IMG/VR virus record: IMGVR_UViG_3300025299_000044
Span: 1-35,807 of that record
Length of the DNA: 35,807 nt
Direction: 5' to 3' (one strand)
Source of the DNA: a virus
This document shows, one piece after another, positions 13,905 through 16,234 of the stretch (positions within the stretch are counted from its first letter, which is position 1; each line of letters begins with the position of its first letter). The position numbers and the translations under genes are program-made. Under the pieces are notes generated by a model. That model was given only the letters and a program-made list of their open reading frames with translations, ran no database searches and was not told the origin of the DNA.

Positions 13905-14255
13905 ATGAGTTCCGCGGTAAAAACCCAGAGCTACATTTGCCGGATGGTCGAGAAAGAGACCAAGGGCTGGGGCGACACTTTGCCCGCTCTAGAGCGGCTG
14001 GCCAACCGGTACGCGATTCCCTTTTGGACAATGAATAACATAAGAATTGGCCGCGCGAAGACCGTCGAGGGCGGGATTATGCGTAGGGTCAAACTGGCTT
14101 ACCTCGACATGTGCGAGCGCCAGCTCAAGAACCTCCAACACGAGCTCGAATTAGAAGGAGGAGACACAGCAGATGATTTGGATGCGGATCTGCTGGCTGA
14201 GGTTCAAAGCCTCGCTGCGAAAGTTACTCAAGCGAAAAAGGGAATAAGGGCATGA
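13905..14255 (+). CDS. Hypothetical phage protein, helical
   Basis: I chose the ATG at 13905 because GGAG lies six bases upstream; an in-frame ATG at 13872 has no proper spacing. The 116 residues start with a compact domain (YICRMVEKETKGWGDTLPAL, then NRYAIPFWTMNNI) resembling a small HTH-like regulator. They end in an acidic coiled coil (LKNLQHELELEGGDTADDLD). Similar proteins are common in rhizobial prophages without known function. It is coupled by ATGA to the HNH gene. Confidence 0.65.
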   Translation: MSSAVKTQSYICRMVEKETKGWGDTLPALERLANRYAIPFWTMNNIRIGRAKTVEGGIMRRVKLAYLDMCERQLKNLQHELELEGGDTADDLDADLLAEVQSLAAKVTQAKKGIRA

Positions 14256-14785
14256 GCAACCTGATTTCGATTGAGGAGTTGCGTGAAAACTATCTCTACG
14301 ACCCGAAATCAGGGATCGTTTACTCGAAGAAGAACAATCGGGGAGGGGATATTTCCCCTCCCAAGCCGGCCGGCACACTTTGGTCGCACGGATACCTCGT
14401 CATTAGAAAATCGGGGAAGGCATACCCCGCGCACAGGGTAGCGTGGGCGTTATTCCACGGAAAATGGCCAAGCCAGAATATCGACCACATCAACGGGGTT
14501 AGAGACGACAACAGGATCGAAAACCTTCGAGACGTCTCGTTCTCCGATAATTCTAAAAACATGCGCCTCTTGTCACGCAACAAAACCGGCGTGCCTGGGG
14601 TTTCCTGGTCGGCTTCCAAGCAAAAGTGGATAGCCCAGATCACTCACCGCCGGAAACAGATTCACCTGGGTACGTATTCCTCATTCGAAGAGGCCGTCTC
14701 AGCTAGAAAAACCGCAGAGATTTCGTGGGGATTCCACGAGAACCACGGACAGCGATCCCGGCCAACATACCACAACTACAACTGA
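14252..14785 (+). CDS. HNH homing endonuclease with AP2 DNA-binding domain
   Basis: The 177-residue protein has the common phage layout: an N-terminal strand region (YLYDPKSGIVYSKK), the HNH core with HRVAWALFHG (61-70), IDHINGVRDDNRIENLR (78-93) and the SFSDNSKNM helix, then a C-terminal AP2-like domain (112-160: TGVPGVSW, KWIAQITHRRKQIHLGTY, EEAVSARKTAE). It would cut a specific site in phage DNA that lacks the gene and so spread by homing. It sits at the joint before the methyltransferase gene, with its start coupled to the preceding stop. Confidence 0.93.
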   Translation: MSNLISIEELRENYLYDPKSGIVYSKKNNRGGDISPPKPAGTLWSHGYLVIRKSGKAYPAHRVAWALFHGKWPSQNIDHINGVRDDNRIENLRDVSFSDNSKNMRLLSRNKTGVPGVSWSASKQKWIAQITHRRKQIHLGTYSSFEEAVSARKTAEISWGFHENHGQRSRPTYHNYN

Positions 14786-14859: not shown

Positions 14860-15615
14860 ATGACGAAGCTCAAGGTTCTCGATCTCTTCAGCGGCATAGG
14901 CGGCTTCTCGCTGGGCCTGGAGCGTACGGGCGGCTTCGAAACGGTCGCCTTCTGTGAAATCGAGGAATTCCCTCGTCGAGTGCTCAAGAAACACTGGCCA
15001 GAGGTGCCCTGCTACCATGACGTACGAGAACTCACAGCAGACGTTCTTCGACGAGACGGAATTTCCGTTGATGTCATCTGCGGAGGCTTCCCCTGCCAGG
15101 ATATCTCAAGCGCAGGGAAAATGGCAGGTATTGACGGAGAGCGAAGCGGTCTATGGGGCCAAATCGTCCGCCTTTGTGGCGAGCTTCAGCCAGGTTACGT
15201 CATTGTGGAGAACGTCTCAAACCTCCTTACAGGAGGGAAGGGAAGCTGGTTCGCAAGAGTTCTCAGTGACCTGGCCACGATCGGGTACGATGCGACATGG
15301 CACTGTATCCCAGCTTCCCACCTTGGCGCACTCCATCAACGAGACCGTGTCTGGATCGTCGCTTATCCCAACTCCGACAGCCTGCGACTACAAGGGTTCC
15401 GGCGTCCCAAGGATCGGCCGTGGACCGAAGAACAATTTGCGGGATTGGTTCAAGTGGCACTTCAGGCTGCAGTACCCACCCGTAATGGCGGTGGAATACA
15501 TGATGGGGTTTCCAATCGGGCACACAGACTTAGAGCCCTAGGAAATTCGATCGTTCCCCAGATCCCCGAACTTATCGGCCACGCCATCCTCCAAGCAGAG
15601 AGGGCCGCAGCATGA
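14860..15615 (+). CDS. C5 cytosine DNA methyltransferase (Dcm family)
   Basis: The ATG at 14860 has GAGG upstream at good spacing and gives 251 residues. The motifs appear in order: I LDLFSGIGGFSLGLE (7-21), II FCEIEEF, IV GGFPCQDIS with catalytic Cys79, VI VIVENV (114-119), VIII QRDRVWIVAYP (160-170), then X RALGNSIVPQIPELIG (225-240). It transfers a methyl group from S-adenosylmethionine to cytosine C5, probably shielding phage DNA from host nucleases. It is shorter than typical family members (about 300-420) because the target-recognition region between motifs VIII and IX is only about 45 residues. A second frame inside it is also protein-like. It overlaps the next gene by ATGA. Confidence 0.93.
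   Translation: MTKLKVLDLFSGIGGFSLGLERTGGFETVAFCEIEEFPRRVLKKHWPEVPCYHDVRELTADVLRRDGISVDVICGGFPCQDISSAGKMAGIDGERSGLWGQIVRLCGELQPGYVIVENVSNLLTGGKGSWFARVLSDLATIGYDATWHCIPASHLGALHQRDRVWIVAYPNSDSLRLQGFRRPKDRPWTEEQFAGLVQVALQAAVPTRNGGGIHDGVSNRAHRLRALGNSIVPQIPELIGHAILQAERAAA
15017..15541 (+). CDS. Overlapping gene inside the methyltransferase gene (alternate frame)
   Basis: The frame is shifted by one relative to the methyltransferase and is open for 174 codons from the ATG at 15017 (195 from a GTG at 14954). The product is not low-complexity shadow. It contains ASPARISQAQGKW, SLWRTSQTSLQEG, FSVTWPRSGTMRHGT, LIPTPTACDYKGSG and YMMGFPIGHTDLEP, and I recall the same ordered motifs in separately annotated phage proteins. 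Those motifs correspond base for base to methyltransferase motifs: SPARIS to PCQDIS, LWRTSQTSL to VENVSNLL, IPTPTAC to AYPNSDS, MGFPIGHTDLEP to DGVSNRAHRLRA. The ribosome site at 15017 is weak. Both readings may be used, or this may be an evolutionary by-product of the shared codons. Confidence 0.5.
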   Translation: MTYENSQQTFFDETEFPLMSSAEASPARISQAQGKWQVLTESEAVYGAKSSAFVASFSQVTSLWRTSQTSLQEGREAGSQEFSVTWPRSGTMRHGTVSQLPTLAHSINETVSGSSLIPTPTACDYKGSGVPRIGRGPKNNLRDWFKWHFRLQYPPVMAVEYMMGFPIGHTDLEP

Positions 15616-15872
15616 CACAGAAGCTCCTCGACCTCTTCCGCGCTCCCCACAACATGGACACTGCCCAGATCGCCGCACACCTCGGCGGCGAGGCTGCCGG
15701 ATGGACAGAGGGCCGCGTCTACAACGTCATCAACGCCGAACGCCGAGAAGAACGCGCCGTCCCGGTCACATGGAAAGACGTTGAGCCGAAAGAGCGAAAG
15801 CACGCTCCCACGGCCAAGCTCCGCAAGCTCGTCCCGTTCGCTGGCTATGACGGCAAGGAGGAACGGATCTGA
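15612..15872 (+). CDS. Small winged-helix-like protein
   Basis: The 86-residue protein has an N-terminal segment like a short winged helix: helices KLLDLFRAPHNMDTAQIAAHL and WTEGRVYNVINAE, followed by RREERAVPVTW. A basic tail follows. This may help recognise DNA near the replication genes. It is coupled by ATGA to the methyltransferase and by TGATG to rusA. Confidence 0.6.
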   Translation: MTQKLLDLFRAPHNMDTAQIAAHLGGEAAGWTEGRVYNVINAERREERAVPVTWKDVEPKERKHAPTAKLRKLVPFAGYDGKEERI

Positions 15873-16234
15873 TGACGCGCTTAGAACTTCCCTTTCCCTT
15901 GCCCGTCTCGGCCTGCTTCGAAAACGTCCCAAAGGTCGGCCGTCGCGCCACAGCTCGTTACCGTGAATGGACCAACGAAGCCTTGTGGATGATCCACAGC
16001 CAGAAGCCACAGAAGTTCGCAGGTGAGGTTTCTATCTCCATCGGCCTCGTAGCCCCAGACAAGCGCGCTCGTGACGCTGACAACGCCTTGAAGGGCTGCC
16101 TCGACGTTCTCGTCAAGTCCGGCGTCATCCGTGACGACTCCAACCGGTATGTGCGCCGCCTGACGGTTCAGTGGGTGGCATCTGGCGCTCCCTGTACCGT
16201 GCTCATCTCTGAATATGAGGATCAAGCAGCATGA
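15872..16234 (+). CDS. rusA: RusA-family Holliday junction resolvase
   Basis: The 120-residue protein resolves Holliday junctions formed during phage recombination and before packaging. The family's acidic site is visible as RARDADNALKGCLDVLVKSG (Asp68, Asp70, with Lys74), followed by GVIRDDSNRYVRRL (Asp88/89). The first strand has FPLPVSACFENV. Length matches RusA (about 120). It acts as a homodimer with metal. TGATG coupling to the gene before and ATGA overlap to the gene after place it in the rightward early operon. Confidence 0.93.
   Translation: MTRLELPFPLPVSACFENVPKVGRRATARYREWTNEALWMIHSQKPQKFAGEVSISIGLVAPDKRARDADNALKGCLDVLVKSGVIRDDSNRYVRRLTVQWVASGAPCTVLISEYEDQAA

Follow-up and report, generated by a model that had tools for sequence, protein, structure and literature searches.

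Split C5 cytosine DNA methyltransferases

M.EcoHK31I belongs to a restriction-modification system and has the target YGGCCR. Its small subunit of 176 aa is said to have been traced by Lee, Kam and Shaw in 1995 to an alternative frame inside the gene for the large one. The target of M.AquI is CYCGRG. The C5 methyltransferase motifs of M.EcoHK31I are divided between two polypeptides, the large one having I to VIII and X and the small one only IX (PMC3404938), and the enzyme has been called naturally split (PMC3439449). M.AquI is also naturally split, and its small subunit holds motifs IX and X (PMC3404938). Out-of-frame ORFs within phage methylase genes include the HNH endonuclease of the ShiLan domain, an inserted mobile element (PMC11855218).

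The locus described here lies in a window of 35,807 nucleotides, the whole stretch of IMG/VR record IMGVR_UViG_3300025299_000044 that was analyzed, which is a tailed-phage record judging from its terminase, portal, and major head genes. The methyltransferase gene (alpha) and the gene nested in its +1 frame (beta) have the following features.

14860 to 15615, + strand: alpha, C5 cytosine methyltransferase catalytic subunit, 251 aa (PF00145, 4e-45; phrog_363, 5e-74)
15001 to 15006, + strand: Shine-Dalgarno-like GAGGTG of beta, 10 nt 5' of its ATG, overlapping the Glu-Val codons of HWPEVPCYHDV in alpha
15017 to 15541, + strand: beta, nested +1-frame gene, 174 aa, probable small subunit with motif IX and target recognition part (phrog_1008, +1 conservation, synonymous constraint)
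15017 to 15369, + strand: N-terminal part of beta, overprinted on alpha motifs IV to VIII (translations, beta identity between relatives)
15370 to 15519, + strand: poorly conserved linker of alpha, residues 171 to 220; the same DNA encodes the part of beta from PTPTA to motif IX (pLDDT, divergence)
15473 to 15538, + strand: C terminus of beta, YPPVMAVEYMMGFPIGHTDLEP, motif-IX-like (hhalign via staggered and fused relatives)
15532 to 15591, + strand: alpha motif X (RALGNSIVPQIPELIGHAIL), the start of which is the end of beta (sequence, model helix 234 to 250)

Architecture, not sequence homology, makes a nested two-subunit enzyme of the M.EcoHK31I type the best reading of this locus. As in M.EcoHK31I, motifs I to VIII and X are in alpha and motif IX is found in beta only (motif IX being assigned via intermediates), and the small-subunit gene is inside the large one, in +1, as in all relatives found with alpha. 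The 174 aa of beta are close to the 176 aa of the M.EcoHK31I small subunit. Unlike M.EcoHK31I, which is part of a restriction-modification system, the window is a phage record in which no restriction endonuclease was identified. M.AquI resembles the staggered mycobacteriophage and Samy forms described below in having motifs IX and X in the small subunit and differs from the window form, which is nested and keeps motif X in alpha. The sequence-only reading of the window had called two used frames unusual for such a conserved enzyme, thereby overlooking M.EcoHK31I, one published two-part enzyme. Beta shares with the ShiLan HNH gene its out-of-frame position in a phage methylase gene. It is not an inserted element of that kind, its DNA being alpha's own catalytic and linker region read in +1. 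An HNH endonuclease gene (phrog_99, 7e-67) is located directly upstream of the methyltransferase, at 14252 to 14785, and a RusA-like resolvase downstream, at 15872 to 16234.

A probable catalytic subunit without in-frame motif IX

In-frame motifs I (DLFSG), IV (GFPCQ), VI (VENV), VIII (QRDRVWIV), and X (RALGNSIVP), together with a Rossmann-type fold, identify alpha as a C5 cytosine DNA methyltransferase (PF00145). Its frame contains no motif IX or recognition domain, and the PF00145 match ends at profile position 179 of 324. The AlphaFold model of alpha is confident (pLDDT 83) and has the M.HhaI catalytic-domain fold (Foldseek E 6e-17), without the small domain. Residues 171 to 220, which occupy the position of the recognition domain and motif IX of ordinary enzymes, are mostly unstructured (pLDDT mostly 43 to 58). 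In a monomeric C5 methyltransferase, one frame includes both motif IX and the recognition domain; here, the motif IX match falls in +1. The methyltransferase, initially described as intact with all core motifs, reads intact from 14860 to 15615 and is without an in-frame motif IX.

Relative to alpha, the +1 frame is open from stop to stop at 14900 to 15541, and the ATG at 15017 gives 174 aa, which bears out the claim of at least 174 open codons. The N-terminal part of beta reads SPARIS over PCQDIS, SLWRTSQTSL over VIVENVSNLL, and SGTMRHG over GYDATW. The proposed motif map placed SLWRTSQTSL and PTPTA (over AYPNSDS) correctly and misplaced two others: TWPRSGTMR reads LATIGYDATW rather than the catalytic region (the catalytic PCQ reads SPARIS), and MGFPIGHTDL sits just upstream of RALGNS rather than being its alternate reading.

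Conservation of the nested frame

When alpha alone was resampled synonymously with its own codon usage, 3.5 stops were expected in the stretch from ATG to stop, and 2.1% of trials left it open; one gene is therefore weak evidence. All 80 viral loci fetched with alpha alone, which are close relatives of the window, have an overlapping ORF that matches the beta profile, always in +1. Stops were counted in a fixed 57-codon stretch starting at ENV, ORF-defined overlaps being open by construction. No +1 stop was present in 73 of 73 distinct relatives (18.6 expected open), and stops occurred at the expected number in the +2 frame of the same stretch. Ordinary methyltransferases of two control sets, phi3Ts-type and RB43/Staphylococcus-type, had +1 stops in 38 of 38 cases. 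Frequent, unconstrained stops in this frame of homologous loci, the outcome held to speak against a gene, were thus not seen.

Relatives scored 106 to 200 bits with the beta profile, compared with a maximum of 113 and a median of 60 for synonymously recoded alphas; the window scored 205 bits, compared with a maximum of 98 after recoding. Alpha conservation alone gives about 50 to 60 bits over the N-terminal half of beta, one example of conservation imposed by alpha being SGMMRNG, the +1 reading of GYDAEW. By these scores, conservation of the beta N terminus is partly, not wholly, forced by alpha.

Owing to the +1 geometry, a silent third-position change in alpha is a change at a second codon position in beta. 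Between relatives with 55 to 65% alpha identity, the fraction of differing four-fold sites with the same amino acid was 0.64 before PCQ, 0.34 from VENV to motif VIII, 0.23 from VIII to X, and 0.67 from X to the end. A sliding silent-site profile had its minimum, 0.16, at beta's motif IX and then rose to 1.03 past the end of beta. Silent-site constraint in alpha is confined to the beta overlap and sets in around alpha residue 48, where beta is proposed to start. Beta identity between relatives was 0.55 (VENV to VIII) and 0.30 (VIII to X), versus 0.31 and 0.15, respectively, after synonymous recoding. From VIII to X, alpha amino acids differ in 73% of columns and four-fold sites in only 23%, and beta is therefore the constrained frame there. 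RNA structure could be a source of silent-site constraint but gives no reason for one particular frame staying stop-free.

The ATG of beta falls within the conserved WPEVPxYxDV of alpha, and 68 of the 73 relatives with this motif have a nearby ATG in the beta frame. A Shine-Dalgarno match of at least 5 bases was found in 37 of these 68, versus 20 expected from synonymous recoding. The conserved ATG and the excess of Shine-Dalgarno matches favor independent initiation over frameshifting and argue for a beta that initiates at its own internal ATG.

Both frames of the locus are coding and constrained, and the suggestion that both are used here is well supported by the overlap-only synonymous constraint, the lack of stops in relatives, and the conserved start and ribosome-binding site. 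Comparison of synonymous change in aligned methyltransferase genes, one of the checks proposed, found constraint in the overlap only and beta conservation above the recoding level. Since the +1 frame is conserved, silent sites are constrained, and other methyltransferase lineages do show the expected stops, beta can be regarded as a real gene, and its product is very probably a translated, selected protein.

Probable nature of the nested product

An HMM search with the alternate-frame product, also among the proposed checks, matched the window beta to phrog_1008 (“DNA methyltransferase,” 7e-22) and to no model in Pfam or NCBIfam. Searches of PDB sequences with beta profiles and of viral contigs with beta alone gave no matches. 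The C-terminal end of beta, LNPxxVExLMGFPxGWTDL, is motif-IX-like and stands in canonical motif order, collinear with the motifs of alpha. Assignment of motif IX to the nested beta rests on intermediates. In hhalign comparisons, the beta C terminus matches staggered or fused relatives, whose beta includes motif X or is continuous with alpha (E 1.4e-14). The staggered or fused forms in turn match ordinary enzymes over motifs IX and X (LTPRECWRLQGFPDW...GNSV; E 6.8e-5). Compared directly with ordinary motif IX, the nested beta aligns to LTPRE..RLQGFP, which is not significant (E 0.1). The beta of Streptomyces phage Samy matches the C-terminal part of enzyme family phrog_116 (2e-13).

In the nested layout of the window, motif X is kept in alpha. 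In the staggered layout (JewelBug gp81/gp80, Samy gp49/gp50), alpha stops after motif VIII and beta has motifs IX and X. Mycobacterium prophage prophiT49-1 gp22 (L266:1438-2823, 461 aa) has motifs I to VIII, PTPxA repeats, IX, and X in one ORF, with an N-terminal beta relic remaining in +1, and is apparently a re-fused enzyme. Several PTPxAxD repeats (LLPTPTARDWK...) are present in long staggered or fused betas (loci L016, L215, L253, and L266) and may be repeated recognition modules.

The AlphaFold model of beta alone has a pLDDT of 63, near 90 only at residues 130 to 174, and Foldseek found no match to it. Such a poor fold might be expected of a dependent half-domain but also of a non-protein. 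Birth of a protein family by overprinting, as first proposed, fits the N-terminal half of beta, which lies over motifs IV to VIII. The C-terminal half is not a new protein, because its motif order and profile match are those of the methyltransferase's own motif IX region, displaced to +1. Beta is thus likely to be the motif IX subunit of the window enzyme.

Distribution and annotation

The nested arrangement turns out, from these sequence comparisons, to have a wide distribution among archaea, bacteria, and phages. When GTDB genomes were scanned with the beta profile, 78 loci were obtained from bacteria and archaea (Pseudomonadota, Bacteroidota, Bacillota, Actinomycetota, Cyanobacteria, Planctomycetota, Chloroflexota, Gemmatimonadota, and archaea), a set that was found by beta and indicates breadth, not frequency; 74 have the +1 overlap and the other 4 are indel-joined or staggered. 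Three single-ORF loci (L207, L208, and L238) each seem to result from a single indel (coverage is 1.5x for one of the contigs), and L215 is staggered. The same nested type also occurs on plasmids and in E. coli prophages. One E. coli prophage copy (L257:3992-4753) is annotated as a pseudogene with an internal stop, and a stop interrupts both overlapping frames at nearly the same position. In an E. coli prophage, a second and divergent methyltransferase (L258:1034-2020) has a weak beta-profile match (29 bits) and an open +1 frame ending LNPAHSRWLMGLPRAW.

No free-standing beta, sought as proposed outside methyltransferase loci, was found among 160 viral and 78 genomic loci, in all of which beta overlaps alpha or joins it by an indel or a staggered end. 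Similar phage proteins had been described as annotated separately. They do not form a family of their own, every located homologue being in +1 of an alpha or one frameshift from it, and the separate annotations are annotators' choices of one frame or the other. In phage loci L010:1405-1905, L018:1336-2016, and L001:392-652, the annotated CDS is the beta frame and alpha is unannotated; elsewhere, only alpha is annotated. Some half enzymes bear a methyltransferase label, and phrog_1008 and phrog_16143 (“DNA methyltransferase”) gather alternate-frame products as though they were ordinary methyltransferases.

A second +1 ORF in Streptococcus-type enzymes

Streptococcus-type enzymes (loci L267-L346; e.g., L261:1592-2020) were initially fetched as a negative control. 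They have motif IX in frame, yet none of the 51 distinct members has a stop in +1 (0.5 expected open). The +1 ORF has 142 to 192 aa, ends in SLSDILEExVDEKYFLS, and matches phrog_16143 at 6e-59. Silent-site divergence drops to 0.17 to 0.21 exactly at this ORF and is 0.84 after it. In a quick core-domain tree sampled by similarity to the window, Streptococcus-type and motif-IX-less enzymes form one clade (support 1.0), with ordinary enzymes lacking the +1 ORF apart. Grouping of both types in one clade suggests one old origin of the double-coded frame. There is about an even chance that the nested +1 gene arose once, before the motif-IX-less and Streptococcus-type enzymes split, and has persisted in phages, archaea, and bacteria as two forms, one a motif-IX subunit and the other an ORF of 140 to 190 aa in otherwise complete enzymes.

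Proposed model and alternative explanations

The locus probably encodes a two-subunit C5 cytosine DNA methyltransferase with the small-subunit gene nested in +1 of the large-subunit gene. Alpha would bind AdoMet and carry the catalytic Cys (Cys79) with motifs I to VIII and X, a variable linker replacing the recognition domain and motif IX. Beta would start at ATG 15017 behind the internal Shine-Dalgarno site and supply motif IX and, probably, the recognition part, and an active enzyme would form by assembly of both polypeptides. The arrangement likely arose in an ordinary gene by a frameshift downstream of motif VIII and a compensating shift upstream of motif X, which put the segment from the recognition domain to motif IX into +1. 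In addition, the +1 frame over motifs IV to VIII was probably recruited to become the beta N terminus.

If beta were untranslated, the open frame and its “motifs” would be by-products of alpha's conserved amino acids and codon usage, and the median of 60 bits for recoded alphas and the 2% of recodings in which the window gene stays open are in keeping with this. It is nevertheless highly improbable given observed scores of 106 to 200 bits, beta identity about twice the recoded value, silent sites constrained in the overlap only, an alpha without motif IX, and stops that occur in +2 and in ordinary enzymes but not in +1. Unlikely, though less so, is programmed +1 frameshifting that yields an alpha-beta fusion instead of a separate subunit. 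One +1 shift would give a complete I-to-X enzyme in the staggered forms (JewelBug, Samy), and a fused single-ORF form exists (prophiT49-1 gp22). However, nested forms keep motif X in alpha's frame and would lose it by such a shift, constraint starts near alpha residue 48, well before motif VIII, where the Shine-Dalgarno site and ATG are conserved, and M.EcoHK31I has been reported as two polypeptides.

Beta could also be a real overprinted protein with a role other than that of a subunit, e.g., a regulator or anti-defense protein. Its N-terminal half has no known relative outside the locus, and Streptococcus-type enzymes keep a +1 ORF despite an in-frame motif IX. Such a role is improbable for a protein that was never found without alpha in the viral and genomic loci and whose motif-IX-like C terminus lies, in canonical order, exactly where alpha lacks motif IX. 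The two-subunit enzyme therefore stays the preferred reading of the locus.

Implications

One such enzyme, M.EcoHK31I, was known before, and the arrangement now turns out to be widespread and, as the tree suggests, old; neither its breadth nor the Streptococcus-type ORF is described in the open-licence papers searched. Because gene callers do not allow long overlaps on one strand, databases hold alpha or beta, often half an enzyme labeled “DNA methyltransferase” or “hypothetical protein.” The annotated protein, expressed alone, would be inactive, leading to a false verdict of an inactive orphan. Hundreds of members of the locus family can be aligned, with ordinary enzymes as an outgroup, which makes the family a strong natural data set both for frame-on-frame evolution and for the splitting of an enzyme whose gene stays unbroken. 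If the single origin is true, few nested gene pairs in prokaryotes would be older or more widespread, and the Streptococcus-type ORF would encode an undescribed subunit or accessory protein.
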